Positions 8,101 to 60,897 of a stretch of DNA of 64,000 bases are shown here, one piece after another. Position numbers and translations under genes: made by a program. The notes beneath the pieces are model-generated. The model worked only from the letters and a program-made list of their open reading frames with translations. It searched no databases and was not told the DNA's origin. Location of the stretch: assembly GCF_026151205.1 (NCBI RefSeq), contig NC_087080.1, positions 13,463,337 through 13,527,336 of the forward strand. The letters are read 5' to 3'. Every line of letters starts with the position of its first letter. The first letter of the stretch is position 1. This DNA is from Bolinopsis microptera. Taxonomy: Eukaryota; Ctenophora; Tentaculata; Lobata; Bolinopsidae.

Positions 8101-8997
8101 AGTTAAAGATCTAGAAGTAATGATGCAGAATGTAATCTCCTCAGCGTTTGAGACTGTAACTACAGTCGAGCTTGGTGTTCAAGTCCTTGATGTCTTCCAA
8201 CACTTGTCGTCAAGAGAGGTAAACTTTTATATTCGTTTTAAGTTGTGTATTAGATTTTGTTCTGAAAGGTGAACAGGATAATTTAATTTATTGTCCTTTC
8301 ATGCGATCATGTAGTATAATTTGAAAAGTACCTAAATGCTGATTTCATATTTTCTGAAGGCAATAAGACGGACGATCGACAAGAAAACAGTGGATGTGTA
8401 CCAGAAGTTTAACGAAGAACTGAACCTCGTCAAGAAAGAGTTCAATACCAAAACTCCAAACCTCACTCCAACACAACCCAAGTTTGCCGGCGCAGCAGCT
8501 TGGGCTCGTGCGCTGAAACGCCGGATTGACCGCCCCATGGACGTGATAAACAAAGCGTTTTATCTACCACGTATCGGGGCTGGAGAGGAGATCAGGAATC
8601 AGTATCAGCAGCTCAGTCAGGCTCTAGAGGAGTTTGTTGGGAAGACGTTCCAGGAATGGGCTCTTAGCATCGACAAGGTTGGATATAATGGTTTTAGTGT
8701 ATTATTGTTTAATTTATTATCTAACGTCTGAAGTGTTGCTCAAACATAATATCATGATAATATCATGATAATATCATGATATAGTAAGTTTTATGAGAAA
8801 ATTATCCCTTGCCTTAAATAATAAATATCGATGATTCCAATGATACTGTATTTTATATTGTTTCTCTCTGTCTCTGTCTATGAAATACTCACGCTGAGAA
8901 CCAAGTTTTACACCCAGGATTTAGGACACCTATTAGACGCACCCCTTATGTCCAGATGTCATGACAAGAACACTATGCTCGATGTCAACTTCGACAG
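5140..8997 (+). CDS. DNAH2: DNAH2 exons 1-12: N-terminal tail
   Basis: Exons: 5140-5208, 5372-5545, 5711-5882, 6017-6181, 6437-6629, 6779-6952, 7102-7226, 7369-7553, 7707-7912, 8089-8218, 8360-8677, 8918-8997. They encode about 664 residues of the DHC N-terminal tail region 1, which binds intermediate and light chains and neighbouring heavy chains. Landmarks are [16 protein letters not shown] (exons 3-4) and LYIPEEDI (exon 4). Exon 12 ends in NFD plus two bases of the next codon and is followed by the 9.8-kb intron 12. Intron 4 carries a 17-bp copy of the exon 4 end with its donor at 6299-6315. Confidence 0.9.
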
Positions 8998-11900
8998 GTA
9001 ATAATCAGTCAATAATCATCAGTTAATTATAATTAAGTAGTTTTGTCGATTTACTGCAGAGAATAAAATTTAATCTTCAAGGAATTTTTCGTGCATTATT
9101 TAATGTTGTGGGTTAATCTGACGCACAAACTGCATTCCGTTATAATTTTTTGCTTAATTTATTTTGATTGGATTAACATCGTTATTATAACTGTCGGCTG
9201 TCCGATAAAATAAATATTGTAACAGCACAAACTATGATTACAAAAGTTACCGTTAATAATCAATGCATGATAAATATACAAAATAACGTGTCTATCAGAG
9301 CGGTTCTAGTGGACACTCTCTTGCTTGATAAGTCGATCAGCAGGTAACTCGTAGTAACCAGCTAGCTTACATGTAACCAGCTGTCTTACTACTGCTACTA
9401 ATACTTGCTGCAGCTATTCCTGTAGCTTCGTCTTCCACGCACAACGGAATAGTTTAACAAAAATCATGTGTTTTATCTAAAGCTAAGACTTAAAGTCTTT
9501 CTCTTGTCGTGAAAATGGTTTTAAACTATGGGAGCAAAAGGAACAATGCCGGGGGTTACCTCATACTTAAAATAAATAGTATACCGTATTTAATAAGTTG
9601 ATAAACTCATCAAAAAACAACAAAGTACGCTGAAGTGAAAGTTAAAATCAAACTTAAGTCGTCTAAAATATACGATTAAAAGCTATACTTGACAACCTTA
9701 TAACCTGACCAGAACGCTGCTAAACCGTATATCCTGACCAGAACGCTGCTAAACCTTATAACCTGACCAGGACGCTGCTAAACCTTATATCCTGACCAGG
9801 ACGCTGCTAAACCTTATATCCTGACCAGGACGCTGCTAAACCTTATAACCTGACCAGGACGCTGCTAAACCTTATAACCTGAAAAGGACGCTGCTAAACC
9901 TTATAACCTGACCAGGACGCTGCTGAACCTTATAACCTGACCAGGACGCTGCTAAACCTTATAACCTGACCAGGACGCTGCTAAACCTTATAACCTGACC
10001 AGGACGCTGCTAAACCTTATAACCTGACCAGGACGCTACTAAACCTTATAACCTGACCAGGACGCTACTAAACCTTATAACCTGACCAGAACGCTGCTAA
10101 ACCTTATAACCTGACCAGGACGCTACTAAACCTTATAACCTGACCAGGACGCTTCTAAACCTTATAACCTGACCAGGACGCTACTAAAGCTTATAACCTG
10201 ACCAGGACGCTACTAAACCTTATAACCTGACCAGGACGCTACTAAACCTTATAACCTGACCAGGACGCTGCTAAACCTTATAACCTGACCAGGACGCTGC
10301 TAAACCTTATAACCTGACCAGGACGCTACTAAACCTTATAACCTGACCAGGACGCTACTAAACCTTATAACCTGACCAGGACGCTACTAAACCTTATAAC
10401 CTGACCAGGACGCTACTAAACCTTATAACCTGACCAGGACGCTACTAAACCTTATATCCTGACCAGGACGCTACTAAACCTTATAACCTGACCAGGACGC
10501 TACTAAACCTTATAACCTGACCAGGACGCTACTAAACCTTATAACCTGACCAGGACGCTACTAAACCTTATAACCTGACCAGGACGCTACTAAACCTTAT
10601 ATCCTGACCAGGACGCTACTAAACCTTATAACCTGACCAGGACGCTACTAAACCTTATAACCTGACCAGGACGCTACTAAACCTTATAACCTGACCAGGA
10701 CGCTACTAAACCTTATAACCTGACCAGGACGCTGCTAAACCTTATAACCTGACCAGGACGCTACTAAACCTTATAACCTGACCAGGACGCTACTAAACCT
10801 TATAACCTGACCAGGACGCTGCTAAACCTTATAACCTGACCAGGACGCTGCTAAACCTTATAACCTGACCAGGACGCTGCTAAACCTTATAACCTGACCA
10901 GGACGCTACTAAACCTTATAACCTGACCAGGACGCTACTAAACCTTATAACCTGACCAGGACGCTACTAAACCTTATAACCTGACCAGGACGCTGCTAAA
11001 CCTTATAACCTGACCAGGACGCTGCTAAACCTTATAACCTGACCAGGACGCTGCTAAACCTTATAACCTGACCAGGACGCTACTAAACCTTATAACCTGA
11101 CCAGGACGCTGCTAAACCTTATAACCTGACCAGGACGCTACTAAACCTTATAACCTGACCAGGACGCTGCTAAACCTTATAACCTGACCAGGACGCTACT
11201 AAACCTTATAACCTGACCAGGACGCTACTAAACCTTATAACCTGACCAGGACGCTGCTAAACCTTATAACCTGACCAGGACGCTACTAAACCTTATAACC
11301 TGACCAGAACGCTGCTAAACCTTATAACCTGACCAGGACGCTACTAAACCTTATAACCTGACCAGGACGGTACTAAACCTTATAACCTGACCAGGACGCT
11401 ACTAAACCTTATAACCTGACCAGGACGCTACTAAACCTTATAACCTGACCAGGACGCTACTAAACCTTATAACCTGACCAGGACGCTACTAAACCTTATA
11501 ACCTGACCAGGACGCTACTAAACCTTATAACCTGACCAGGACGCTACTAAACCTTATAACCTGACCAGGACGCTGCTAAACCTTATAACCTGACCAGGAC
11601 GCTACTAAACCTTATAACCTGACCAGAACGCTGCTAAACCTTATAACCTGACCAGGACGCTACTAAACCTTATAACCTGACCAGGACGCTACTAAACCTT
11701 ATAACCTGACCAGGACGCTACTAAACCTTATAACCTGACCAGGACGCTACTAAACCTTATAACCTGACCAGGACGCTACTAAACCTTATAACCTGACCAG
11801 GACGCTACTAAACCTTATAACCTGACCAGGACGCTGCTAAACCTTATAACCTGACCAGGACGCTACTAAAGCTTATAACCTGACCAGGACGCTGCTAAAC

Positions 11901-14900
11901 CTTATAACCTGACCAGGACGCTGCTAAAGCTTATAACCTGACCAGGACGCTACTAAACCTTATAACCTGACCAGGACGCTACTAAACCTTATAACCTGAC
12001 CAGGACGCTGCTAAACCTTATAACCTGACCAGGACGCTACTAAACCTTATAACCTGACCAGGACGCTACTAAACCTTATAACCTGACCAGGACGCTGCTA
12101 AACCTTATAACCTGACCAGGACGCTACTAAACCTTATAACCTGACCAGGACGCTGCTAAACCTTATAACCTGACCAGGACGCTACTAAACCTTATAACCT
12201 GACCAGGACGCTACTAAACCTTATAACCTGACCAGGACGCTACTAAACCTTATAACCTGACCAGGACGCTACTAAACCTTATAACCTGACCAGGACGCTA
12301 CTAAACCTTATAACCTGACCAGGACGCTGCTAAACCTTATAACCTGACCAGGACGCTGCTAAACCTTATAACCTGACCAGGACGCTGCTGAACCTTATAA
12401 CCTGACCAGGACGCTGCTAAACCTTATAACCTGACCAGGACGCTGCTAAACCTTATAACCTGACCAGGACGCTGCTAAACCTTATAACCTGACCAGGACG
12501 CTACTAAACCTTATAACCTGACCAGGACGCTACTAAACCTTATAACCTGACCAGGACGCTGCTAAACCTTATAACCTGACCAGGACGCTGCTAAACCTTA
12601 TACTTACTTTACTTTGGTTACTTTGGTTGTGTTTATCCTCGTAGCAGGAAGGGTCATCAGATTTCTGACCACCTCGATGGCGAGTAGTCTACCAGGGAAT
12701 TAGACCAGCTGCAGCTATAACCGGAAGTCGGAGGGTTGTCCGGTATCAAAGCAATAAACTTGGACAAACTAACTTTAAACGACTCAAACGTAGCTTCAGC
12801 TTTAATATTATCAGGCACTTTGTTCCACAGTTTTGGTCCTCTTACAGCAAATGAGCTGTCATAGAGTGTCTGGTTGCTCGAGGAACTCAACCTAGACAGG
12901 GAAGGGATGATTGCTCGGGTACCATGTCTGGATGTTTTTGTGAACCTTATATTGCTGCAATTGGGGACAACATTGTGAAGGATCTTCCACATCATCAGAA
13001 TAGTGTACCGTTCCCTTCTGCGCTGCAGTGACATTAGCTTTAGATGTGAAAGCCTCTCCCAGTAGTTCATATTTTCCAGACCGCATATACGATCGGTGAA
13101 TGTTCGCTGGACCCCCTCCAAAAGCTGGATCTCAGTCACCTTAACAGGGTCCCACAGCGGACAACAGTACTCTAGTAGGCTTCTGACCAAAGACTTATAT
13201 AGGGTAGTCATTACGGTCCTATCACGAGTTTTGAAGACACTAAACACCCATGACAGTGTGCTTCTAGCTTTCTTGACCATATTACCGATCTGTTTGGACC
13301 AGTTCAGATCGCTTGATACCATAACTCCGAGGTCTCTAACGTTCTCAACGGGATGTAGTATTTCCTCGCTGGAGACCTTGTAAAGTAGAGTTTCCACGTA
13401 AAAAGGAAGTTCAGAAAAGGTACTTTTTCTATTGTGGAGATGATTCAGGAGCTCAAACTTCTGTTCGTGGAGCTTCATGTTGTTGCAGCGTGACCAGTCG
13501 AGAATACCGTACAGATCAGCCTGAAGCAGCAGACAGTCCTCAAAGCAATCGATACGTTTGGAGACCCTAGTATCGTCAGCAAAGAAGCTTACCTTAGAAG
13601 AGGTAACAGCTAGCTCTAGATCGTTAATAAACAAAATGAACAATAGTGGTCCTAACACACTTCCCTGAGGGACACCACTTAGAACCCTGGCACTGTCCGA
13701 ATGAACACCGTTTAGGACTACAACCTGTTCACGGTCAGAGAGAAATGACTGGATCCAGCTTAGAAGTTTGCCGTGAAATCCGTATCTCTTTAACTTTAAC
13801 AAGAGAAGGTCCAAGTCAACTTTGTCAAACGCCTTGGCGAAGTCGAGGTATATGGAGTCTGTGTCTTTCCCCTGAGTAAACCCTTCAAAGATGTCATCAA
13901 AGTGATCGAGCATTTGGGTCAAGCAGCTTCTGTTCGATCTGAAACCATGTTGTTTGTCAGATAACAAATTGTTGGTTTCGAGATGCTGAACCATGTGTTT
14001 CCTAACCACTCTTTCATAGACTTTGACTACATGTGAGGTCAGAGTAACCGGTCTGTAGTTAGCAGCATCACACCTGCTACCTTTCTTGAAAAGCGGTGTG
14101 ACATATCCAGTCTTGTAGAAAGTTGGGACTATGCCTGTATACATGGACTCAGACCAGAGGAGATGAATCGGAACACTCAAGCTTGAAGCACATCTTTTGA
14201 GGAGAATAGCAGGAATACCATCGGGTCCGGGTGCAGAGTCCAGCTTAATCTCAGATATAGCTTCCACGATGTGGTTAGGTGTGAGTACCAGTTCTGTATC
14301 TCTGCTAGTGAGAGGTGGTACTGTAAATGTAGGTAGTGACTTATCAGGGCAGTTGGGGTCACTAAAGACAGAACAGAACTGTTGCTGCAGTATATTAGCT
14401 AACTCTTTCCGTTCAGTTACCAGTTTCTTATCACGGTTTAGAAGAGTTGAAATATTGTGCTTAACTTTAGAAAAAGATTTAGCGTATGAGTAAAAGTATT
14501 TAGGATTGACTTTAATTTTATCCACTGCTCTCTTTTCACCTTTATCAAGATGGTGGACTATAGCTTCCTTGATCTCATAGCAAATTAATCCAATTTCGTC
14601 TTCAAGTTTCTTGATTCGAGCTAGATCATTGGCACACTTTGCAGCAGAGAGACGGGTTTTAAGTCGTGACTTCTTCCTTCTCAGCGAATTATAAAGCTTC
14701 TGCTGGCCAGTTGGTGGTCGTTTCCGAGGAACATTTTCCAGGCATATATTAAGCACTGTCCGTGTAAACTCTGCGGGAAATTCTTCAAAAGTGCTTGCGT
14801 CTCTCAAGTCCTTCCAATTCACTCTGTTTAGGATCTCAGTAATCGGTTCGAAGTCTGCCCGATTAAAGTCTAGGGCTCGGAAGCTCATTTCGTCAAGATA

Positions 14901-17900
14901 TGAAGCCTGAGCCTTCTCCATCAGACCAGGGTTAAAGGATAGCAGTACATTAACCATGTCATGATCAGATATTTCTGTTGCTTCACAAGTTACATCAGAT
15001 ACTAGCCGATCATTGTTACACAAGACGAGGTCTAGTGTACTGTTTCCCCTGGTTGGAACAGTAACCACCTGACTCAGCAGATGGGTTGACATGAAGTTTA
15101 GCAGGTATTGGGCGGAGAGATTTGAATCAGAGGTCCCACCGCTCATGATGTTTAGTGTTTCCCAGTCAATCTGGGGAAAGTTGAAATCGCCTGTTATAAA
15201 GACGTCGTAGCCACTAGGTGCAAGGTTCTCAATAGCGAATGTAAATCTATCTATTAGTTTTGAGAAACTACTTGAGCTTGCGTCAGGTGGCCTATAAGCA
15301 ACTGCTATGCAAAGTTTAGCAGAAGGGTAGACATTAAAGATTCCCTGGCAAATGCTGTCGTCGTAAGTCTCCGACACCGAGACTGGGATGGACGACAGTG
15401 AGTAAAGTATTACTCCTCCGCCAACTCTCTTACTGCGATCACTTCGACAAAGTGAGTATCCGGGTAACTGAAGCTGGGCGTCACTGATATGTGACTTAAG
15501 CCAAGATTCTGTGATAGCAATAAAGGGGTAGAGCTGTCCAGACTGTCGTTTATCGTCTACATGACCAACAAGGTCATTAAGCTTCCATCTGCAGGTACTG
15601 TGGGCAGATGGATTTAAACTCCTAGCATTTAATAATAAGAGTGAGGAGAGAAAGGAATCTGGTGGTGTGGTAGCCTGGGCACACCTAGACTCATCATTGG
15701 GGGAGCTGATTGAACTGGGTAGATCATGGATGCTCCCATTGGCTGTGTGACAGTTTGGGATGGGGATGGGGTACCTTGATCCATCTTTTTCTCCAATGCT
15801 TCCAACTTGGCCGCCATCCCAGTGATCAAGTTTCGTAGCTCTAAAAAATCACTCGTGTTGGCATTGGCATCACTATTCTGTTTGCTGTACCTCTGATTCG
15901 TGTTAAGAGTGTTACTCTTAGGACGCTCTCCCCTCTCAGGACGCTCCTTTGTACTCTTTCTGGTCGACCGGGGGTGAAACTTTAAACAGTCCTTTTTAGA
16001 ACACGAACCATTCTCAAGTGCAGTTCTACAGATATCAGGGTGAAAGAATGTACAGTTTTTACCTTCTTTACAACCACTCCTTCCCGTGAAACCAGATGCT
16101 CGGTACTGATTGCAGACCCTTGGATGAGTAGAAGGGCAAGAGTTCCCGTTGATCTTCTTTTTTCCACTGATTCCGTGTGGACAACTCCAGTTTAGGAACT
16201 CTTGACAAACAGTTGTGGCTGGTTGTGAAGAGTCTGTAGCTGCAGCTGTCGTTGCAGTGGCTGAACTAGGCGATAACACAGGAGATGGAATTTGGGTCGA
16301 AGATATCAAACTAGAAGGATTAAGACTGGAAACATCTGCTGAACTGTCCAAGGACTGGCTGTCAGCAGAAGAAACATTTCCTGATAGTGAAGCAGATGTG
16401 TGGCGTGATCTCTGTTTCCTAGGTTCTATAGGATCAATTAGCCCATGACATGTGTTACAGAGCCACACAAAACCTGTCGGCGTGTTCATAGCTGACAGGG
16501 TCTGATGTAGCTCTTTGTTTCTTTCACAACAATGTGAACCTTTGAAACATTTAAAGCAATTGAAAAAAGGCATGACCTCAGGATCATGATCAATCACGTA
16601 GTTATCACCGCACTCTCCACACTTTCCAGGCATCAGAGCCATAAAACCAAGATAAAGGCGATTGGCAAGAGATGACTTAGTGAAAATCTTAAAATCGTCC
16701 TTGTCAGCAAGAGCAATTCCTAGAAATTCAGCACAACTTTCAAGTATTCCAACCGTAAATTGATTAAGTCGCTGAAGGTTAACTGAACGAGACTGTAAAC
16801 ATTCAAAAGCAGAAATAACAGGTCTGATAGACGAGTTAGCTTTTTCTATCAGTTTCCCGATAATAATCTTGGTACTTTCACTGTCATTTTTCTGGGGATT
16901 CCCTGCCATGGTGTAATGTATACCCGATGTATTGTACAATAAATGTACAATGGCACACGTTCACTTATCGCAATTTAGCAACAAATAACTGATAAGCGAG
17001 CACTTAAAATTACAACCAAACAAAAACGATTTTCGAACAAAAAACCTGACCAGGACGCTACTAAACCTTATAACCTGACCAGGACGCTACTAAACCTTAT
17101 AACCTGACCAGGACGCTACTAAACCTTATATCCTGACCAGGGCGCTACTAAACCTTATATCCTGACCAGGACGCTACTAAACCTTATAACCTGACCAGGA
17201 CGCTGCTAAACCTTATAACCTGACCAGGACGCTGCTAAACCTTATAACCTGACCAGGACGCTACTAAACCTTATAACCTGACCAGGACGCTACTAAACCT
17301 TATATCCTGACCAGGACGCTACTAAACCTTATATCCTGACCAGGACGCTACTAAACCTTATAACCTGACCAGGACGCTGCTAAACCTTATAACCTGACCA
17401 GGACGCTGCTAAACCTTATAACCTGACCAGGACGCTACTAAACCTTATATCCTGACCAGGACGCTACTAAACCTTATATCCTGACCAGGACGCTACTAAA
17501 CCTTATAACCTGACCAGGACGCTACTAAACCTTATATCCTGACCAGGACGCTACTAAACCTTATATCCTGACCAGGACGCTACTAAACCTTATAACCTGA
17601 CCAGGACGCTACTAAACCTTATAACCTGACCAGGACGCTGCTAAACCTTATAACCTGACCAGGACGCTACTAAACCTTATATCCTGACCAGGACGCTACT
17701 AAACCTTATATCCTGACCAGGACGCTACTAAACCTTATAACCTGACCAGAACGCTGCTAAACCTTATAACCTGACCAGAACGCTGCTAAACCTTATAACC
17801 TGACAAGGACGCTACTAAACCTTATAACCTGACCAGGACGCTGCTAAACCTTATAACCTGACCAGGACGCTGCTAAACCTTATAACCTGACCAGGACGCT

Positions 17901-20900
17901 GCTAAACCTTATAACCTGACCAGGACGCTGCTAAACCTTATAACCTGACCAGGACGCTACTAAACCTTATAACCTGACCAGGACGCTGCTAAACCTTATA
18001 ACCTGACCAGGACGCTGCTAAACCTTATAACCTGACCAGGACTCTACTAAACCTTATAACCTGACCAGGACGCTACTAAACCTTATAACCTGACCAGGAC
18101 GCTGCTAAACCTTATAACCTGACCAGGACGCTACTAAACCTTATAACCTGACCAGAACGCTGCTAAACCTTATAACCTGACCAGGACGCTGCTAAACCTT
18201 ATAACCTGACCAGGACGCTACTAAACCTTATAACCTGACCAGGACGCTGCTAAACCTTATAACCTGACCAGGACGCTGCTAAACCTTATAACCTGACCAG
18301 GACGCTGCTAAACCTTATAACCTGACCAGGACGCTACTAAACCTTATAACCTGACCAGGACGCTGCTAAACCTTATAACCTGACCAGGACGCTACTAAAC
18401 CTTATAACCTGACCAGGACGCTGCTAAACCTTATAACCTGACCAGGACGCTACTAAACCTTATAACCTGACCAGGACGCTGCTAAACCTTATAACCTGAC
18501 CAGGACGCTGCTAAACCTTATAACCTGACCAGGACGCTACTAAACCTTATAACCTGACCAGGACGCTGCTAAACCTTATAACCTGACCAGGACGCTACTA
18601 AACCTTATAACCTGACCAGGACGCTACTAAACCTTATAACCTGACCAGGACGCTACTAAACCTTATAACCTGACCAGGACGCTACTAAAGCTTATAACCT
18701 GACCAGGACGCTACTAAAGCTTATAACCTGACCAGGACGCTACTAAAGCTTATAACCTGACCAGGACGCTACTAAACCTTATAACCTGACCAGGACGCTA
18801 CTAAACCTTATAACCTGACCAGGACGCTACTAAAGCTGTTCCGTGAGATATACTACTGGGAACGCCTCAAGTTTGAGATCCCCCACTACGCTGCTGAGGT
18901 GTACGCCAAGGAGGAGGATCTCAGAACGCTGAGAGAGAATGTGTTGTTGGTTGTTAGGGATTATAACAGGATTCTAGCTGCTCTGAATACCGAGGAGAGG
19001 GGTCTCTTTAAGGTCAGCTCAGAGATCAAGATATTATCGTTTGAGAGAGAGAATAGTGATATTTCCAAATGAATCATACAAAGCGTATTTGGTTGAAAGT
19101 TATGCAAAATGTTAAACAATTTGGCAACTCATTTGAGACATGTCTGATAACACTGCCTAACCACAATTCCTGCAGGAGCGTATCAAGTTCCTAGACAAGA
19201 AGATACACCCAGGTCTAACGAAGTTGACCTGGGCTAGCAAGGGTCCCACCACAGACTACTTCATGAACGAGTGCAGGGGACATGCCAGCAAGGTGCAGGC
19301 TATAGTGGACAGTTACAAACACGCTAACAGGTCCATACAGGCCCTCTGTAAGAAGATCAGTGAGTCTCTTCTCGTCAGCATTGATAGCAAGCGTATCTAC
19401 GAGAGTAACGAGGTAAGTGGGTGTTATCCGGTGTTTTAATGGTTTTAGTAACGGTGTTAGTAACGATGTTAGTAACGGTGTTAGTAACGGTGTTAGTAAC
19501 GATGTTAGTAACGCGAACGGTGTTAGTAACGGTGTTAGTAACGGTGTTAATGTGGAATTATGGAGGATCTACACTATCACGGTATCTAAAACAAAATTTT
19601 TTTTAAACAAATGATATTATAACCAGTTCCCAGTCTCACCCACTACTAAATTTACTACTTGTGTACAAGTTCACTATTGTAATGTTCCGTACCTCTTTAG
19701 TTCGAAGTAGAACAACAGAAACACCGAGCTACAATGCAGAGTAAGCTTGTTCACCTGCACGAGGAGATCATTGCTATCATGAAGAACACTTATGAGGTCT
19801 TCAAGAACGACGGAACTGATGTAAGTAACTGGTCTTAATATGTTTAGCTTGAAGTTTAAATATGGATGATGATTATAATAAATTATTAAATTTCAATATA
19901 GACTATAGAGTTTGCATTGAACATATATATGAATACGGGCCAACTTATTTTCGATTTGATTTCGGAGTACTAAAGCTAGTCCAGAATCCTAGGTTTTATG
20001 GTCTATAAATGAATGTTAATGAAATGTATTAAACAGGTACAGCTTCACTGGCACCGTTACACCGAGAAGACCGATAAGATGGTGGAAGAGGCGTTCAGAC
20101 TGAATATCAAGCGATCTCTACAAGAGTTATCACGTGCTATACATGGGGACGGTAAAACTGCTCCCAACCCTCTTTTCAAAGTTAAAGTAGTGCTTCACGA
20201 GAAAGATAGGGTAATACATTGTTTTTGAGATTTCATACATTGTATTGTTGATTTAAATCGAAAAAGTTACCCCAAGGAGAAAAATTCTTATCTGAATTAG
20301 AATATACCTATACAATTCTCCGATGCTAACCATTAAATAGACTCTAGCCATTCTTAACTATCTTAATAAAATTATATTATCAGGTTGACTTCAACCCGAC
20401 AACTAAGAAACTAGCGGACATGATGAACGTGTGTGCTAAGGATCTGACAACGTGTATCTCAATTATTCCTCGTCTTCCCGAGATACTATCCAAGAAGAGA
20501 GGACACAAGGAAACCATGGTAAGAGCAATTATTCAGATTATTGTGGAGAAATTATTAAGTAATTATGGAATAGTAACTGTTTAATCTCGATAAAAATCGT
20601 ATCGTTTAAATCTAACAATTTATTATACTTAACACCAGTTAGAAAAACTGGAAATCTATAGATTATTTCAAAATATTAACACTCTCAGAAATCGATTGCT
20701 ATGCTTTCAAAGCAAGAGGTAAGAAGTGATGAGTGAATGAAAAAAAAGTGATCATCATACATTGATTACTAACAGCCGATATTTGCATGTTCTTTTTGCT
20801 GAAAACTAGGGTCGGCTGTGGAAAAAGTGTCGTAAAACCTGTGCAGCTCCATTAATTTTCATTTAGGTCTATCAAACGACATTCTTAAGCACCTCATTTT

Positions 20901-23900: not shown

Positions 23901-26900
23901 CTGAAGGCAACTGACGAGTTGTTCCAGATGCTTGAAGATAACCAGGTTTCACTGGCCACCATGAAAGCTTCAAGATACGTCAAAGCTTTTGAAGTCGAGG
24001 TATGAGTTTTACTTTACAGCTCTAAAAGATTCGCTATTTCCTATCTAATATAGATAAGAAACTCTTATTTTAAAATTTTGTCGTTAAAACAAGTTCAAAC
24101 TTTCCATTTAAACACTACAACTTGTGTCAGGTCGACCAGTGGGAGAGAACGTTATCCCGGATACTGGAGGTGATAGAGCTCATACTAACAGTCCAGAGAC
24201 AGTGGATGTATCTGGAGAATATCTTCCTGGGAGAGGATATCAGGAAACAGGTTAGTCTTAGATATTGTTGGGTTGAAAGGGAATGTTCCACAGCTATAAT
24301 GTCATTGATCACTGGTATTTTCACTTTGAGCCTCAAAAATTCTCCTACAATTAAAATTTCAATGTAAACTAAACATCAAATTTCGATCAGCTGCCTCGTG
24401 AAAGTGCAGAGTTTGACGATGTTAACCACAACTGGAAGACAATAATGGATAGTTTGTCTAAAGATAGCAACGCCCTTAGGGGAACTCACCAAGCTAGTGA
24501 GTTTGAAATTAAGATTTATTTCGTTTTAGGTTTTTCTAATAATTGCAGTTATTTGCAAGACCCATTTAACAGCCCATCTTTCAACGAATCTATTAAAATC
24601 ACATAATCTTCCATTACGGTTTTTATCGGCCAATATTGACTCAATTATTGGTTGACCTTGAAAAGTTAAAGGTTTTTCCCTAACACAGTACTTTACCTCA
24701 GACATGTTGGAACGATTGAACGACATGAACAACAAGCTAGAAGATATCCAGAAGTCTCTAGATATGTATCTGGAAACAAAACGGCAGATATTCCCTAGGT
24801 TCTACTTCTTGTCTAACGACGACTTGCTTGAGATCCTCGGCCAGGTAACGTAATGTTGTAGTGTCACTAGGACACTGCACTAGACACTTCACACTAGTAG
24901 TGTCTTCAAATGACAAATATTTATCTGTTAGTAAAGCTTTTGGGAACCTTGGATAAATTTAGATTGTCATGGTTTTATTAAATGTTTGATTTATTAATTA
25001 CTATTAATGACTCAAAATAACCTCATTAGAGAGGGTTAAAACGCTGTAACGCAAACTTTAGATTAACCAATCTGTTGGTTAATTGCTGAGCGAGCAAAAT
25101 ACAATAAAATGCTGACAATATCACTCCTTTCAGTCCCGTAACCCAACTGCGGTCCAGCCTCATCTCAAAAAGTGCTTTGACAACATTGTACAGCTACAGA
25201 TGGAAAAGGTACTTATCTTCAGACACTAATTTTACTGAACATATTTGTCTTTATTCGCCATCTTCAATCCCTCGCTTCAATTTATAACAGTGTCTAAATT
25301 GAACAACAAAATTTAATATGACTTGAGCATTTGCATTTTGAACAATTATAGAAGTATAACCATTATTGAATAATTATATAGCAATGATTACTGAGAGATC
25401 TCTTTGTTCAGATCGGTATTGACAGTAAGGGAGGTAAGATGGAAGCAGTGGCGATGTTCTCAGCAGATGGTGAGAAAGTTGAGTTCAACACCCAAGTCAC
25501 ACTGGAGGGACCAGTTGAGGTCAGTGTCACGTGACTTCTACATAATTTCATTTTTATTGCCAACACAAAATATTGCTATCTCTAAATACCGTTATCCTGA
25601 CATATTTTTCATTTATAAATATTTCGGTTAGTTAGAAAAATTAGAAACGACGTCCGGCAATGCTGTCTTTTATTACTGAACAGCCAGATAGTGGTCAATG
25701 TTTCATTGATTAATGAATATTTGGTATGCATAATCACCATTCGATGCGATATTCATGATCAAGATTGACCACACGCAAAGAATTTTAGCGTAGGTGGCAA
25801 CATCGTGGCACTCAGCCAAGTCACGTGGCCTTTGATATCTTCATTCGGACTAAAAGATTCTTAAAATAGTGATTGATTGAATTTTGAGCGGATTGATGGA
25901 GTATCAAGATCAAAAGAAATGCTAGCTGCTTTTTCTATGTGACACGCTTCATTCATACAATGTCAAAACAAACAACACATGATGTTTACCGTAACGATAC
26001 CAGAAGATTAATCTCTAATTCATGAATTTAAACTAATTGATCACCAGGCGTGGTTGTGTGATATTGAAGACACAATGAGAGTTACACTGAGACAGCAGCT
26101 GAAACTGTGTAGAGTAGCCCTGAAGAAGGCTGGAACCAAGAGAGACAAGTGGACTAAAGAGTGGCCAGGTCAACTTCTCATAACCACCAGTCAGATGCAG
26201 TGGACACAGGTTCATTTAATTAGTTTATGTTTTTATGTTTTTGTTGTCATTCGCCTACTAACTCAGTAGATAGGTTGCAATTTTTTGATTCGTTTTAACT
26301 TTTAACTAAAGACTATCAATTAAACAATAATCAAGCATAATATTATTAGTGATCCAAGAGTTTAACAATCTTAATAGAAGGCTGATCAGACAATCTCACC
26401 AAACTCCTCCTCCTCAGGATTGTACTAAAGCGTTGAGCATGATCAAGGACCGTGGTGACAAGAAGAGTTTGAAAAGTATGAAGAAGAAACAGATCTCAAT
26501 GTTGACCAAGTTCTCAGACGCCATCAGAGGCAACCTGACTCCCATACAGCGAGCTAAGATTGTAGCTCTGGTTACTATCGAGGTTCACGCTAGGGATGTT
26601 ATCGATAAGCTGATTAAGAGTAACTGTAATGATGTCATGGGATTCGAGTGGCTCATGCAGCTCAGATTCTACTGGGAAAAGGTTAGCTTGTAACTGATGG
26701 TAAAAACCGCAGATCAAATGAACTGAATCATGTATAATATTATCCAACTTTTTGTTCACAAAAATCTCACTCAACCTAAAATGCACCCTTAAAGTAACAA
26801 AAAGTGTGTCTGCAATTTTGACAAAACTTTCTCCCCATTAACTACATCTCTACAGACGTGCCCCTTACAACCTCTCTTCAGGAGATAGACGACTGTACAG

Positions 26901-29900
26901 TACAGCAGACTAACACCCAGTTCCGGTACGGGTACGAGTACCTGGGTAATAGTGGCCGTCTGGTTATCACCCCTCTTACTGACAGGTGTTACATGACACT
27001 CACTACTGCTTTACATCTTCACAGGGGGGGCTCTCCTAAGGGTCCTGCTGGAACAGGTACTGTCATACCATGTTGTAGGATAGGTTTTTATTTTAAGATT
27101 TTAGTTTGCTTTGTACAGCGAAATTTCACTCTATTATTATGTATGCCATAATTTATTGTTGTTCTGAGGACTGTGCGCTGCGTTTTATTTCAATAAAAAT
27201 CAAATTTTCATCAAGCTACCACGTGAATCACTCTGCTAAATTTGCGTCATAACAGGTAAAACTGAGACAGTAAAGGATCTGGGCAAAGCTCTGGGAGACT
27301 ATGTCATTGTGGTCAACTGTTCTGAGGGTCTAGATTTCAAGAGTATGGGTAGAATGTTCAGTGGCTTAGCTCAGACTGGAGCTTGGGGCTGCTTTGATGA
27401 GTTCAACAGGTTTAAACTAAAATTAAAAACTAACTGAAACATATAATTTTATTAACTACGATAATTATATAGCTGCATGGTGCACAATTGATTTAGAACA
27501 AGTCACAGATTTGAAATCTTGAACATGTAATATCAAATCTTGCTGTATCAATTAAATATTATCATATCTTTTAACCACGTCCATCTCAGAATTAACATTG
27601 AAGTGTTGTCTGTGGTGGCTCAGCAGATCTTGTCTATACTATCCGCACTTGCTGCTGGTTATGCCAGATTTGTCTTTGAGTGCAGAGAAATCAATTTGGT
27701 GAGTACTTTTGTTACATTTTGATTTAGTCATGATCATGTTTTATCATCTAAATCTTCATCTAATTGGATAATACGTATACTCCGTTCTCCATACTCTTTG
27801 ATTTAATTATTATAACAATTAACATGCAAATGGAAACTGATCACTGTTTATACATAAGATAAAACCTCCCCTCAGGTATGGTCGTGTGGTATCTTCATCA
27901 CAATGAACCCCGGGTACGCTGGTCGTACGGAGCTTCCTGACAACTTGAAGAGTATGTTCAGACCAATCTCCATGGTGGTACCCGACTCTTGCCTCATTTC
28001 TGAGATTATCTTGTTTGGCGAGGGCTTCAACAACACCAAGGTACGATAAAGTGATCATTTTATTGTTCATTTTGTTTAAAATGCTGTTCCACACGCGCTA
28101 GTTTATAATGTGATCACTCAATACGTCTTGTTGACTTGACTAAAGTTTTGAACACTTGAAATTTCTAACCATGTCAAACCGCCGCCTGTACCTGGTGAAT
28201 TACCGTTCCACAAACTAATCCTGCACTACTGTATGGCTTGAAGCGGTAGTCAGAGCAATCTCTGGTTCCAATATAGCTTCCACCCTCCAAGAGGAGCATG
28301 GCTTGCAAATCATATTCTTAACTTTACCGAGAGTTTGTTTGACATAATTGTTCATTTCCTCATTCCTGGTCATGTAAACTATCGGATTACTGGCTGAATT
28401 GATGGACATGATTATGTAGGTCAACATCTGCAGCATTCCCTCGTCTTTATCTCCTTCTTTATTTTCTTCTTTAGCTTCCTCTTGGTGCTCTGATACTATT
28501 CGTTCTGTCAGGATAAGCACCCAGGACAGATTGAAGGTAACAAAGATTAGAGATAATATCAGAACCATCTTTGTTGCTTTCTTGTTCCCGTCAGACCCTT
28601 TTGCAGCCCCTTCTGGCCTTATTTTCTTGAGAGCTCTGATCGAGATAACTGAGCAACCTATTACAAATAATATCATGACACTCACAACAACGAAAGAAAC
28701 TTTCTCTGTCATTGAGATTTTACCATTTTCTTCATCTTCTTTGCCTTTTTCTTTCATGTAGGGATCGAGCATGACAAACTTTCCTGTGACAATGAAGGCT
28801 GCTACTATTGCAGCTGAAATGTAAACTTTTGATCTGCTTATCTGGTAGAGGGGCAAGTTGATAGCGATACACCTGAGAGCACAGAGAAAACAGGTAGCCA
28901 GTCCAGAAAGTTCGACCAACATGGCAAAGAAATTAAAATACATAAAATGCTTGTCATGATCTTTGTCGGAGCCGTTGTCGTCTTTCTTTCTGTCAGAATA
29001 AAGAACCAGTACCATTGCGCATACTGAATATAGACACAGTGTGATGTCCACAGAATTGAGGAAAACCAAGAATCTGTCGCCAATATTCCTATTCTTTCGT
29101 CTGAGGAAAAAAGATATCGACATAGTGTTGGTGATCGTTCCTATGCAAGCAATTGTGAGAGATATTGGCAGTCCAAATTCTATGCTGGCGTCTTTTCTGA
29201 CACTTTCATCCAAGCGAGCATCATCATCATACTCTGGAACCATTGATGTATTGAAAATAGTGGCCTTCAACTTCTAGACCTATGCTAGCAAGAAATCTCA
29301 AATACTACAATCAATAATGATGACCTAAAACCGAGCTGAAAATGAATGTCGCATTGTAGAATTGAGAGTAATTAAAACTCCAGAATTAATCAAAACGTGG
29401 TAATTATCCTCGACTCGATCTCCACGTGCAAGTATGGCGCCGGATAAGTCCGGGAAGCCAGCTGCACAGAATTATAAGGTAAGAAATTACCTATTATCTA
29501 CCTATCTTACACCTGCACGCTTGAGAGTCTACAGGTATATAGTCTCTTTTTGGGTTCAAGCTTCAGGAGTGCAAAATGAACATGGCTTGCAAATCATATT
29601 CTTAACTTTATTGAGGGATTGTTTGACATATTTGTTCATTTCCTCATTCCTGGTCATGTAAACAATCGGATTGCTGGCTGAATTTATTGAAATAATGATA
29701 TAAGTCATGATGCCCATCAAGCTCATCGTTTCTGTTTCTTCCTTATCTGACGTAAAATATATCAGCATTGACACCCAGGACAGATTGAACGTAACAAATA
29801 GGAGACCCAATATCAGAACCATCTTTGTGGCCTTCTTGTTCGTGTCAAATCTCTCTCCCGCCCTTTCTGGCCTCGTCATACTTAAAGCTTTAATAGAATA

Positions 29901-32900
29901 GACAAGAACAATTATTACCATTAAGCTAACATTAATGAGAGCCAAAAACAAAGGTATCGATTTTTCAAGGCCGTTTTGAAATATGTCCTTGTAGTAATCT
30001 GTCACAGCGGGAATGAACATGACCCACTTTCCTGTTATAATGAAGGATGCTACTAACACAGCTGAAATGTAAACTTTAGTGTTGCTCATTTGGTAGAGGG
30101 GCCAGTTGATGGCGATACATCTGAGAACACAAAGAAAGCAGGTAGCTAGTCCAGAAAGTTCGATCAACATTTGAAAGAAGATGAAAAACGACATCTGATG
30201 ATTTTCTTCCTTATTGTAAGGTTGGGACATGGCTGTCACGCCGATTACTGAAGAAATGCATATGATGATGTCCAAAAAGTTGAGAAGAATCAAAAATTTG
30301 TCTCCAAGGTTTCTGTTTTTCCGTCTCAAGAAGAAGTTTATTGATACAGCGTTTATGATTATCCCAAGGCTTGCAATAGTAACTGAAACTGGCATCCCCA
30401 ATTTGTTGCTCGCTTCTCCTCCCTCTCCTTCATCACCAGTAAAAATAGCGGTATCAGAATTCATTGATAAGAGATTTTGTCCGAGATCCAAACTAGCAAG
30501 AAATCTCAAACTTTTTAATCAGAAATAACATGAGATTGAACTTCAGGTTTATTACCGTTAGCAATTTTCCACGTGCAACTCATCACTGGCGGTAGACAGC
30601 AGCTGCAGAGAATTATTATTGTCTCCAGCTACGATCTGGTAGCCAGATGCCATGACGTCATGGTGTGGCTAAGTTGTAAAATAATCTGTTAAAGCTATGG
30701 AAGCTTTTACTGTCTTTAACAAAACTATTTCATTTAACCCTACATAGAAAACAAAATAAATCAGCACCTGCTACTTCATTTTCCAGTATAGGACAAGGAA
30801 ATACATATACATATCATATATTATACAGTTATACCCATTTAAGACATTAAACCTGACATGACTTAACTAAAACATATTTACTCCAACCAGTTATTAGCAA
30901 AGAAGGTGTTCACACTCTACTCGCTGGCAGTCCAACAGCTATCCCAACAAGAGCACTACGACTTTGGGCTCCGTGCTCTGGTGTCTGTGTTGAAATACGC
31001 GGGCCGCAAGAAGCGCTTACTGCCGGAGTATCCCGACGAGGAAATTCTCTTGCTAGCAATGAAGGACATGAACGTTGCTAAACTTACATCCGGTCAGTTT
31101 CTTGCTAGGTTTTTTGCTTCAAGGTTATTATTTGCGGTGGGAATTTCGTCATTTCAAGGACCCTGTCATGTATGTGAGTAAACTAACATGTCATAGAGTA
31201 ATTAAATTAACCGTTCCTAATTTCAGATGACACCCCACTATTCAACGGAATAATTCAAGATTTGTTCCCTGGTGTCGAAACCCCGATCCTCAACTACGGT
31301 GACCTCCAGACCGCTATAGAGTCTCAGATCGTTGCTGATGGACTGCAGAAAGTGCCGGTTATCATTACCAAGATCATTCAGTTGTATGAGACCAAGAACT
31401 CTCGGCACTCTGTCATGATTGTCGGAGATACAGGTGAGGAAACAGAAATTGAGAAGATAGCACTCTACATGTACAGTCTTGAGTCTACAAGTGTAAAGCT
31501 CACTTCTGGAGGGATACTTCTCGTTATATATTATGGCAGTTTGTGGCTGTAGAAACATTCTCAGAACGCGCTAATATAAGTCGGAGTAGCTTAGTACATA
31601 GTTTTGTTTGTCTTGAGACGCGCAGTGCGCGCAATCACCGTTTCCATAGAAACAACGATTCTTTATATGAAAAGCACAACTCTTTTTGCGCGAACTTTAA
31701 TTTCTAGCTAAATTCTCGGATTAAGTTGCCTAGCAACATGGATTAACCTTGAATTCGGGATCCAACACACTTGAGTTTCTATGGAGTAGGAACCGAAGCC
31801 AAATGACACCGAAGCCAAATCGAATTTCAAGGAACTTAAATAGTAACTCATCGTACAACTAGCTAAGCTGTAAACTAAGCCAATATTGGAAACCCCTTGA
31901 TATTGGAAACTAACAACCAAACAAATATTGGAAACGCTAAACTTGTCACTTATTTCAGGTTCTGGTAAATCTGTTGTGTGGAAAGTATTAAAGCATGCAC
32001 TGTCCAACATGTGGAAAGCTGATGCTAGCCAGCCTAAGAATGGTGTTAAGGAATATCCTATCAACCCCAAAGCTCTATCTCTCGGTGAACTTTACGGAGA
32101 GTTTGATCTCAAGTAAGCCATAATATATTTATTTTCTCGGAAGTGGGGCATGTTGTTATTCTAAGTAACAGAGTTGAGAAATATCCTGAGATACCTGGTT
32201 TTATTATTTAAGCTACCTGGGTTACTGATAATTATTCTAACCAACAACTCCCTCAGCACCAACGAATGGACTGACGGTGTCTTATCAGCTGTGATGAGGA
32301 AGACATGCTCTGAAGGCACACCAGACGAGAAGTGGATTCTGTTCGACGGACCTGTTGACACCCTCTGGATTGAGAGCATGAACTCTGTCATGGACGACAA
32401 CAAGGTTCTGACCCTCATCAACGGAGAACGTATTAGTATGCCTCAACAGGTATCTTTACTGTTCGAAGTAGGAGACTTGTCTGTAGCGTCCCCTGCCACC
32501 GTATCTCGGTGTGGTATGGTCTACATGGATAGCTCTGATTTGGGATGGCAGCCATATGTGGACAGTTGGCTTGAAAAACAGAAGGATCCCACCACTAGAT
32601 CTAATTTGAGGAGAATGTTCGAGAAGTACATTGTTCCTGTTCTAGATTTCCGTAAGAAGATGTGCACAGAGATTGTTCCCACGAGCACTCTGAACAGCGT
32701 TAAAAACCTTTGTGTTCTGTACGACTGTCTGGCTACTGTCGAGAACGGTGTAAGTACTTACGAAATGTACGGATCTTCAATGTTGAAGTATTGCAAAATA
32801 TTATTTTATGGCATGGAATTTTCCATTTCTTAATTTCTACTTTGTTCTATTTCTAAGCGACTACTTCATGTTCAGGTGAACCCGAAGGACGAAGAGAATC

Positions 32901-35900
32901 ACCAGAAAATGGTTGAGTTGTGGTTCTTGTTCAGTATGATATGGTCAGTCTGCTGTACTGTTACTGGAAACAGCAGAAAGGTAAGCCAGTCCCGAGCTGT
33001 TAACTTGTTAAGGACTCGTTAAAATATTAGAACAAGATTTTGCTCGTTTAAAATTTGCAAGAGAAGTTTTTTTCGGTTGTCAAAACACAGATCAAAATGT
33101 GATATTTTATGATGTGTAATACATCTATGATCTATCATCAGATTCATCAGACTTATTATATAACTTTATAATAATTAATAATTATTAATTGAATGAACAA
33201 CCTCAGATAATGGACAACTTCATCCGAGAGTTGGAAGGACAGTTCCCGAGTAAGGATACTGTGTACGAGTATTACATTGACGTCAAGCAAAAGTTCTGGG
33301 TTCTCTGGGAGGACAAACTTCGCAGTGGGTACGTGGTTTTATTATATTAGAATATTCAATATTATATTTTATCTAAAATACATGATCAGGAGAATAATTT
33401 GAGATTATAATGAAGAATTAGAATCCTTTTAAAGAATTGTTCTCTGAGGTAAAAGCTATTTACCGTGCCATATTAACAATCTTCATACACCTAGGGAGGA
33501 GATACACGCCTACAGCTTACTACAAGATGTTATGTCCCAACAGTACACAGTGTTACATTCATCACAAGCTTCAAATGTGGAGCCCCTTATGCTGTGGGCG
33601 TGGTACGGTAAAACTTCGTGTCAAGCTGTGAATAGCCCAAGCCACCTAACATACAAATCGTAGTCACTAAGAACTACAAAATGTTCATATCATAATAGTT
33701 TAAGAGACAAGAGTTCGTTGATAGAAAAAGACTTCTACTTTGCGACTTCAACATGCTCAAAATGATTTCTCCCAGATCGACATGGAGTGCTAACGGAGAA
33801 CAATGATTGAGTTTAGGTATGTATCTGTTGACGAAAAGCGAATGGTAGGACAAGGGAATGCGTGAACGTGGGTCCAAAGGTGAATGAGATTGTTCTCAAG
33901 GTTCACCTTATGTTATAACGGAGGCTCAGTTGAGGATGTTCGACTCAGAGTAAACCAAATACACTTTGAAGACTGAACCTTAGCAACATATCACATACCA
34001 TAGGTGTAAAATCCCGTTGTAAATTTAAATGTTCCCACCTATACATTATTACTTGATACTAAAAAACGTTTGATAGTTCTAACTCACATCTCATGTTATG
34101 TAGGTTAGAACTCTAAATAACATCTTCAGTCTTCGCAATTTTTTTAACGTTGGTGGCTTTGGTAATATCTCAAATTCTAAATTGGGTTCTGACCATCTTG
34201 AACGTTATAATGATAGCAACAAGCTGATATTTGGTGAGTTTAAAGGAAGTAGCTACTAGGTGTCCGATGCTATCAGTGACTTCACGATTCAACCAATATA
34301 AAATATAACAATTTGACAGGATAATCATACACAACGTCATCGACCATGACCTTGTCCTTTCAGTGATAATGGACAAAATTTCAGAAGTAGTATTATACGG
34401 TTCCTATAAACATGTTGCTTGTATATGCCACACAAGTTTTAGCTAGCTGGCGCACAACATATCTCAGTTCAAAGTGTAGATAATGTTCTGACTAGAACTA
34501 GATTCAAATCTAGATTTGTACTTGCTGGTAAATAATAAGTCCGTACTGTCTCCCTATTTACGATACTCAATATCACGGAGTCTGTTGGTAAAATGTTCTC
34601 GGGGTTTGATACCCGTTTCTAGTCATAAGACGGTCTAAAAATGCTGTATGAATGTTCTCTCTCCTGAGGTCCTGACGAGATCTTGTCCGCTTCTTTATAC
34701 AGGTTGATCACGGTGTTCGTCTTCACAGATTCTGGGTGACATGAATTCTTGTGAAGTGTGATGTCTTTCTGCTGTGGCTTACGGTACAAGCGGCTCGTCA
34801 CAGTTCCATCAGGTTCCACTCTAAGCTCTGTGTTAAGGAATGGGATGAACTCTTGGTCGTTCTCCGGAAACTCTACCTCCCACTTGAGTTTCTTGTCAGG
34901 GTCCTGGTCTGCGATACTCTGAACAAGTGCTAGAGCTTCTTCTCTTGTTACAGCTGTGCTGGTGGCGTCGTCAATGTACCGCTTGTAGAAGTCAGATAAG
35001 TAGACCGACAAGTAATGTAAGTCAGTGTAAACCGAGCTTCTCTCAAACTTGTACACTCTGATCACTGCGCAAAATGGTCCCGGTCTCAATCCCATGAAAA
35101 GGCCATCCTGCTGTATCCACAGAGTCCCATTATACACAAAGTATGAACTAGTCAGGATGTGTAATAGGATCTCGTGAACATCAGTCAGGTTCAGTCCCAT
35201 TTGGAACGGCGAAATCATTTCTTGCAGCTGGAGAAAAGTTGAAAATCGCAGAACAGAAACTAAATTTCTTTAAACGATGTAAACGACGACAAGTTTTTCC
35301 AGTCTTCATTTTGAACAGTTTTTCACATCAACAGTCATTATTTCCCATCTGTCAATCTAGGAATATACAACATCATCTGAACAGACTCAGAACAGTAGCA
35401 TTAAATCAACATATTTCTTATCAGTATCAGATTATCGCAGACAGTAAACTTCATATTGCACAGTTCAAGAACACTCTATACAATACAGTTGAACAACACG
35501 TTTTTCATAGAATTATAGCCATATCAGAAAGAAACCAGATTTCTATTAAAGAACAGTATAAGATGAACCTACAGAACAAGTTTACTTGGCTACTCAGTAA
35601 ATATTATCCACCACCGCCCCCTACTCCACCAACAGTTATTCAACCTGCAGCAGATCGCGTGACTACACTCAACTGTGATTCAGTTTCAGATAACCAGAAA
35701 TCTGTTCTTGCACTTGGGCCTAATTTTGCAGTAACACCACATGTTAATCAGGAGTTCAAGGACAAAGTTTCCATGGACATTGCACAATGCGTGTTTAAGA
35801 TCAGACATAAGCAAGCATTTGAACAACAACCAGTAGAACAGTCTATGGATGCAGAAGAACAGCCTACTAATACTCCAGAACATCATGAAGAAGCAGAAGA

Positions 35901-59766: not shown

Positions 59767-60012
59767 TTGGGGTTCTTTTGCGATAGTCAAAACGCTAGTT
59801 GTCGCTATCCATGGCGACAACTAGCGCTGGATGGCGACAACTAGCGCTGGATAGCGACAATTATCGAACATATATATTTTGCGCTGGCCAGCGTTATCCA
59901 GCGCTGGATAGCGACAACTAGCGCTGGATGGCGACAACTAGCGCTGGATAGCGCTAGCTGTCGCCATCCAGCGCTAGTTGTCGCGTTTTGACTATCGCAA
60001 GGGAACCCAAAT
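59767..60012. mobile_element. Foldback / MITE-like element of about 245 bp
   Basis: The ends are inverted: left TTGCGATAGTCAAAACG at 59778-59794 against right CGTTTTGACTATCGCAA at 59984-60000, extended outward by TTGGGGTTC against GGGAACCCAA. The interior is made of alternating direct and inverted copies of a roughly 20-bp unit (AGCGCTGG, AT-A/G-GCGACAACT). This gives many possible hairpins. Confidence 0.75.
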
Positions 60013-60544
60013 TGGATGCGCATTAACTTAAATACTTAAACATAAAACGTGTTTATACATATCTTTAATATATAAACGTAATACATCTATGTACCTACAT
60101 AATCAAATAAATTTCTTCATAAATTTCTCCATAAATCATATAAATTTGTAAGTTAATTAACGTCTTTCCTGTAAGTGTCCATGGTCAAAGACACGAAGAT
60201 AGCAGCGTACAGCCATACCGGAACGAACGTCATTATCATGAACCAGGATACTGAAGAATGACAGTCTTTCTGTTTTGTTTTCAGAACTCTGGTCAGGTGC
60301 TCGAATCTGAGGATGGTATTGCCATTGGTAAGAGTAATTTACTCGTGGTAACACGTGGTATTGATAAATTAGAAACACGTTAATTGGAGAAAGAAAAAAT
60401 GCTGCTAAAAAATGTAGCCAAGAACAATGACTGATGTGCCAACAGTCACCATCTCTTAATAGATTTCACTTGTTCTTGGAATAAAATATACGTTAAGTTA
60501 AGTGTTTAAGCGGATGAAATATGGACTTCTAAACATTGTTCTCA

Positions 60545-60897
60545 ATTTGTTACCTGGAGGCTGTGTCTCTAATTTGTTACCTGGAGGCTGTGTCTCTAAT
60601 TTGCTACCTGGAGGCTGTGTCTCTAATCTGTTACCTGGAGGCTGTGTCTCTAATTTGTTACCTGGAGGCTGTGTCTCTAATTTGTTACCTGGAGGCTGTG
60701 TCTCTAATTTTTGTTACCTGGAGGCTGTGTCTCTAATTTGCTACCTGGAGGCTGTGTCTCTAATTTGTTACCTGGAGGCTGTGTCTCTAATTTGCTACCT
60801 GGAGGCTGTGTCTCTAATTTGTTACCTGGAGGCTGTGTCTCTAATTTGTTACCTGGAGCCTGTGTCTCTTATCTGTTACCTGGAGGCTGTGTCTCGA
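60545..60897 (+). repeat. 27-bp minisatellite (TTACCTGGAGGCTGTG core), about 13 copies
   Basis: Thirteen near-perfect copies; each holds TTACCTGGAGGCTGTG followed by TCTCTAATTTG, with TGT/TGC and one GGAGCC variant. Because 27 is divisible by 3, open frames of 66-139 codons result. Their products are repetitive (LLPGGCVSN or CYLEAVSLI), which argues against coding. Confidence 0.92.

Follow-up and report, generated by a model that had tools for sequence, protein, structure and literature searches.

Amphioxus genes harbor tandem repeats, termed mirages, in which an intron–exon border of the host gene is repeated. Mirages are known from the globins BflGb6 and BflGb9, Adh3 and troponin C, and similar repeats are found in PGBD5 (PMC3087553, PMC3902484). 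BflGb6 contains 6 or 3 copies, depending on the haplotype, of an intron end together with the exon start, and the units of the Adh3 mirage are 10–72 bp long (PMC3087553). PGBD5 contains 2–7 repeat copies, and one gene prediction takes the repeats as an exon, without transcript support (PMC3902484). Length instability, even somatic, has been reported for mirages (PMC3087553). Adh3 data and reverse transcription PCR on the globins suggest regular splicing despite the mirages (PMC3087553), and the Adh and troponin C mirages are cited as generating no aberrant mRNAs (PMC3902484). In the literature searched, where subscription papers were mostly outside reach, we found no mirages outside cephalochordates.

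Here, we analyzed a stretch of 64,000 nucleotides (the window; positions are counted from its first letter) of the ctenophore Bolinopsis microptera (contig NC_087080.1, positions 13,463,337 to 13,527,336, forward strand), where a large 29-bp tandem array leads up to exon 13 of the dynein gene DNAH2. Taken as a whole, the locus is probably a mirage minisatellite at the intron 12/exon 13 border, which expanded in place and of which the last acceptor is used. The comparison of sequences places the array with the amphioxus mirages, as all four of the mirage features tested were present. The tandem unit spans the intron–exon border of its host (17 intron and 12 exon nucleotides), and the array adjoins the authentic border, its last unit running into exon 13. 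The repeats carry splice signals, with an AG in 162 of 162 copies and a CTAAC-like motif in 159 of the 161 copies that precede the exon's own (hereafter, decoys), and the homogenized interior gives way to a divergent edge on the left. As in BflGb6, the 3' end of an intron and the start of an exon are duplicated, and 29 bp falls within the Adh3 range. Unlike the known mirages, the host is a ctenophore and not a cephalochordate, and there are 162 copies instead of the 2–7 described for BflGb6 and PGBD5, to which the comparison of copy numbers is confined. The array also differs in the retroelement that splits it and in the origin of its branch-like motif; an RNA outcome has been reported for the amphioxus mirages. 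Compared with known mirages, the phylum Ctenophora, the copy number and the exon codons (CTACTAAA) that supply the branch-like site of the next unit are new.

Two other systems share some of these features. Tandem alternative 3' splice sites likewise place competing acceptors upstream of one exon (PMC6783452, PMC9225289). These studies treat pairs, while DNAH2 has 161 near-identical upstream copies, each leading to a stop. Intron gain by AG/GT proto-splice duplication, as told in PMC3087553, likewise involves a local tandem duplication over an exon border. In DNAH2, however, nothing points to a new intron; acceptors are provided by the unit, and GT occurs in only 2 of 162 copies.

The gene segment and the array consist of the following features.

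8918–8997, plus strand: DNAH2 exon 12, 80 nt, with donor CAG/GTAATA at 8998 (spliced alignment guided by PDB DNAH2 chains)
8998–18822, plus strand: intron 12, 9825 nt (junction mapping)
9689–9693, plus strand: TTGAC, candidate ancestral branch site next to the array; its A lies 20 nt ahead of the G in the first decoy AG
9694–12602, plus strand: left block, made up of 100 decoys, each a 29-bp unit (Tandem Repeats Finder, TRF, and register count)
17043–18834, plus strand: right block, 62 copies, i.e., 61 decoys and the exon's own copy at 18806–18834 (TRF and register count)
18821–18822, plus strand: AG of the authentic exon 13 acceptor (the protein alignment passes the junction without a gap)
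18823–19012, plus strand: DNAH2 exon 13, 190 nt, with donor AAG/GTCAGC at 19013 (protein homology and junction mapping)

Exon numbers follow the original prediction. The translation of exon 13, which begins GACGCTACTAAAG at 18823, matched the PDB DNAH2 chains 8j07_k9 (E 1.2e-18) and 9fqr_D0 (E 1.5e-17), as well as the dynein-1-beta chain 8glv_Co (E 9.9e-15), whose organism we take to be Chlamydomonas. Exons 12 and 13 joined together aligned without a gap through the junction to MLDVNFD-K-TLSILFVEI and MLDVNFD-K-SLLILFAEI of the PDB DNAH2 chains. Among the acceptors near the exon start, to which the trial was confined, a single GT–AG solution (8998–18822) led from exon 12 to the point where exon 13 was expected to begin. 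Junction mapping used a preset limit on the number of residues between the anchors (two for intron 12). It was attempted for 21 junctions: 6 yielded no candidate and 10 a single one, and for each of the other 5, one of several candidates was selected by eye. Because of the gapless match and the single solution, the start of exon 13 is best read as ancestral coding sequence, and the authentic acceptor as the last AG of the array. This agrees with the original prediction, which placed the acceptor at 18819–18822 with the exon directly after it. The N-x-L-L-K-L-F context that it attributed to vertebrate DNAH2 proved homologous but not exact, since the PDB DNAH2 chains read NFDK-SLLILF and NFDK-TLSILF. 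A protein search with exons 13–14 across the genome (264.65 Mb in 232 contigs; one assembly, one haplotype) returned the DNAH2 locus and one distant match (30% identity, contig C3). The 14 other mapped introns of the gene are 140–240 nt long. Although these introns are short, much of the dynein motor is contained in an uninterrupted frame of 1670 codons at 38710–43719.

TRF reported 100.3 copies at 9694–12602 and 61.8 copies at 17043–18834. Counting in register gave 100 + 62 = 162 copies including that of exon 13, the first copy of the right block being without its initial bases. The estimate of about 160 units ahead of exon 13 was thus accurate; the span 9694–18835 does hold the satellite, but as two blocks parted by an antisense retroelement and not as one unbroken run. 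Each unit consists of the 17-nt intron end CCTTATAACCTGACCAG followed by the first 12 nt of exon 13, GACGCTACTAAA. The mean pairwise identity among the 162 copies is 96.6%, and CAG is found in 160 of them. The first 8 units of the left block carry 2.1 mismatches, as compared with 0.48 for inner units, a difference reached in 0 of 20000 permutations; the choice of 8 units was made after inspection of the units, and divergence was tested at the left edge only. Units with AAAGCTT were expected nearest the exon. Decoys –3, –4 and –5 from the exon do carry this variant, but the two units nearest exon 13 are of the bulk type, and left units 17, 75 and 77 have AAAGCTT as well.

An exact 20-mer of the unit had 92 matches in the genome and 92 in the window, all at one place. 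The 29-mer with at most 3 mismatches gave 160 matches genome-wide, equal to the 160 of the window, and the backward-pattern controls gave 0; places were given for the first 100 matches, and repeat counts are lower bounds. With these two patterns, the unit was not found at any other locus of the 264.65-Mb genome. A dispersed satellite family was rejected, the genome matches equaling the window's own. All of the first 12 exon nucleotides match the unit (12/12), which was reached by 0 of 2000 shuffled units. Because the exon joins gaplessly to DNAH2 at the last acceptor and the unit is found only here, the array can be traced to the gene's own 3' splice site; we hold this origin, together with the DNAH2 identity, with high confidence. 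The opposite order of events, in which an unrelated satellite grew until it reached the exon and its final unit came to serve as acceptor, draws on nothing beyond the presence of the array. The locus specificity of the unit, the 12 identical exon nucleotides and the gapless alignment of the exon residues to DNAH2 make it extremely improbable.

The edges of the array suggest how it arose. The left flank reads TTGACAA/CCTTATAACC, and the exon at the right edge reads CTACTAAA/GCTG. One 29-bp tandem duplication, with AA shared at both ends, would yield the bulk unit without further change. In this account, the 29 bp over the intron 12/exon 13 border (CCTTATAACCTGACCAG/GACGCTACTAAA) would have been duplicated in tandem, probably primed by AA microhomology; the duplicated unit would then have expanded in place to 162 copies, become homogenized and later been split by the retroelement. 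In other ctenophores, the single-copy intron end would then be expected to read ...AACCTTATAACCTGACCAG/GACGCTACTAAAG or near it. The candidate branch site TTGAC at 9689–9693 was not flagged by our motif filter (at least 4 of 5 positions). AAAGC as the original unit was rejected, as AAACC and the left-flank AACC account for both edges by one duplication; the AAAGCTT (AAAGC) units are better read as derived. The proposal that the repeat derives from an ancestral exon border is strongly supported by the DNAH2 homology, the locus-specific unit and the single duplication that fits both edges.

The interruption of the array comprises two features.

12603–17031, minus strand: non-LTR (long terminal repeat) retroelement inserted in the array, with endonuclease and reverse transcriptase domains
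17032–17042, no strand: 11-nt filler at the 5' junction of the retroelement (junction comparison)

The frame at 12657–15845 encodes the endonuclease and the reverse transcriptase, and the upstream frame at 15632–16960 had no Pfam match. No clear target-site duplication was found at the junctions. The phase of the array continues on both sides of the element, and therefore the array predates the insertion. One end of the element recurs across the genome, with 97–100% identity in the 40 scored matches of 181 candidates; the other end had 31 matches, 8 of them longer than 200 bases at 97–100% (both counts include the window's own). Copies this similar suggest a recent insertion.

To score splice sites, an acceptor matrix was built from the 14 DNAH2 introns other than intron 12, 5 of which were picked by eye among candidates; the donor matrix additionally contained the intron 12 donor. 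The real acceptor scored 5.26, and the native sites, left out in turn, scored 0.3–14.3. Among the 542 AGs of intron 12, including the real one, 136 decoys have exactly the score of the real site. A CTAAC-like motif 12–40 nt upstream of the AG accompanies the 159 decoys mentioned above (159 of 160 when the first unit, which lacks it, is scored apart); it is present in 9 of the 14 native introns and at 930 of the 3518 background AGs. The motif of the array is CTAAA, 18 nt before the AG. It recurs in this way because the Leu-Leu-Lys codons of the exon (CTACTAAA) sit about 18 nt before the AG of the next unit. The native intron at 24251–24390 carries CTAAA at an equal distance from its AG. These results are in line with the prediction that each unit boundary is a plausible complete acceptor with a branch site. 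The expectation that a wrong acceptor stays in frame if three units are included did not hold. Read from any of the 167 other AGs of the array, the frame meets a stop, which comes after 8 codons in 160 cases, after 2 in 6 and after 20 in 1; the 8-codon readthrough is R-T-L-L-N-L-I-T or a close variant. Inclusion of three units fails to restore the frame because the stop falls within the array whatever the number of units.

How the last acceptor would be chosen among the decoys is a fair question, yet similar structures in amphioxus are reported not to disturb splicing. We lean slightly toward exon definition as the main selector. Upstream, the true acceptor differs little from the decoys; downstream, it has a 190-nt exon and a donor. 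Productive mRNA would use the last acceptor, to which homology points, because no other acceptor lies as near, across exon 13, to a functioning 5' splice site. Because GT occurs in only 2 of 162 units, exon definition by the units themselves is hardly feasible unless it reaches to the exon 13 donor. The decoys, alike upstream but without their own exon or donor downstream, would mostly stay out of the competition, leaving chiefly those few that adjoin the exon. GTs that can be reached from left-block units do occur in the retroelement, some scoring like native donors. Mis-spliced messages, with their early stops, would be expected to be cleared by nonsense-mediated decay (NMD). Exon 13 lies between an intron of 9825 nt and one of 163 nt. 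For human alternative 3' sites separated by 20 nt or more, selection typically takes place when the sites are first recognized; an 'LS' class, which we read as long upstream and short downstream intron, mimics exon definition (PMC9225289).

Several points weigh against this account. The real acceptor is outscored by 44 AGs of intron 12, of which 15 lie within the array and 29 elsewhere. The 14 short introns and the 1670-codon frame, which points to a single very long exon, suggest intron definition elsewhere in the gene, a mode that favors the first acceptor. Competing human 3' sites of both groups lean upstream overall; in long–long contexts this lean is reduced, without a reversal being stated (PMC9225289). 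A designed library with two tandem acceptors displayed no order preference (PMC6783452). Exon definition alone also leaves the discrimination against the two or three exon-adjacent decoys unexplained, and some mis-splicing of the gene in this individual is possible.

The equality of the decoys invites the reading that there is no selection at all: decoys would often be used, usually early ones, NMD would clear the products, and the remainder would supply enough DNAH2, the array lowering dynein output. The 136 ties in acceptor score and the branch-like motif in 159 of 161 decoys agree with this, as do the earlier transcription of the decoys and the early stop after every one of them. Random choice among 161 equal competitors would, however, leave less than 1% productive mRNA, and amphioxus mirages are reported to splice normally (PMC3087553, PMC3902484); we judge this reading rather unlikely. 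Somewhat less likely still is the masking of decoys by RNA structure, in which the nearly self-complementary CCUGACCAGG lets neighboring units pair and bury their AGs, the last one being less buried. A 290-nt piece of the array folds at –50.7 kcal/mol (z –5.2), which none of 200 shuffles equaled, although equally good folds were reached by 17 of 400 arrays built from shuffled units. AG accessibility was computed over four window settings, with native acceptors and shuffled units. The median unpaired probability was 0.008–0.039 for the right-block decoys and 0.009–0.049 for the left-block decoys, as compared with 0.048–0.09 for the real site. The real AG is itself mostly paired, however, with a value under the native median (about 0.08–0.16; 14 acceptors), and some decoys are more open (right-block maxima 0.15–0.26). 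In modelled arrays of 2–9 copies, the first AG (0.025–0.04) was nearly as open as the last (0.034–0.047). Inter-unit pairing is thus clear as a prediction, whereas the sparing of the real site is not, and we regard it as weakly supported.

Two further proposals assign the decoys a product or a function. If they received a spliced leader by trans-splicing, N-terminally truncated DNAH2 messages would result. Ctenophores do trans-splice a leader (PMC8527503), and the leader-like ACACTACTTTAAAACAAATAATTTGAG with a following GT is present in the genome, with a single exact match (C6:19451911-19451939, minus strand; control 0). The end of the Hormiphora leader had 2 genome matches at 3 mismatches (control 0). 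One leader-like copy is few beside the 718 and 491 copies reported for two ctenophores (PMC8527503), and the leader here may be different. As the array units carry stops, translation of a message started at a decoy could begin only past the array, and we give this proposal hardly any credence. It is also very unlikely that the array is a working splicing device, in which a donorless battery of acceptors and branch sites captures and delays exon 12 splicing, the copy number sets the amount of full-length DNAH2, and inter-unit pairing tunes the number of exposed decoys.

The window contains further repeats, with 28 TRF rows in all. Six arrays in DNAH2 introns were compared with both flanking exon ends (12 comparisons; the introns of three arrays were bounded by eye, and the exon 14 end was used one base short), and only the intron 12 array was convincing as border-derived. 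A 12-bp array (AGTAACGRTGTT) at 19429–19549 begins 16 nt past the end of exon 14 (GAG/GTAAGT, exon end 19412). By its position and sequence, it is possibly a donor-side mirage in DNAH2; the 7-mer AGTAACG that it has in common with the exon 14 end gave p 0.018, uncorrected over the 12 comparisons, and this candidate was not accepted. A 20-bp-unit array (GCGACAACTAGCGCTGGATA) at 59814–59975 has inverted copies alongside and is possibly the end of a foldback element. A 27-bp array of 13.5 copies at 60540–60905 is open in two plus-strand frames.

Other coding frames were also observed. Two long frames overlap, one at 34622–35269 on the minus strand with a YIDD motif, which looks to us like a reverse transcriptase, presumably Penelope-like, and one of 941 aa at 35152–37974 on the plus strand, which had no Pfam match. 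Two uninterrupted frames for rhodopsin-like G protein-coupled receptors (28218–29273 and 29559–30518, minus strand) lie antisense within the DNAH2 span. Nested intronic genes have been reported in a ctenophore (PMC8527503).

If the last acceptor of intron 12 is used faithfully, the 161 almost identical upstream acceptors amount to a natural control experiment. The sequence from about 45 nt upstream to 12 nt downstream of the AG would then not be decisive, and the exon body, the downstream donor or the position would decide. Our findings suggest that mirages are not peculiar to cephalochordates, and that kilobases of repeat can grow from a small duplication over an acceptor inside a conserved cilia gene.

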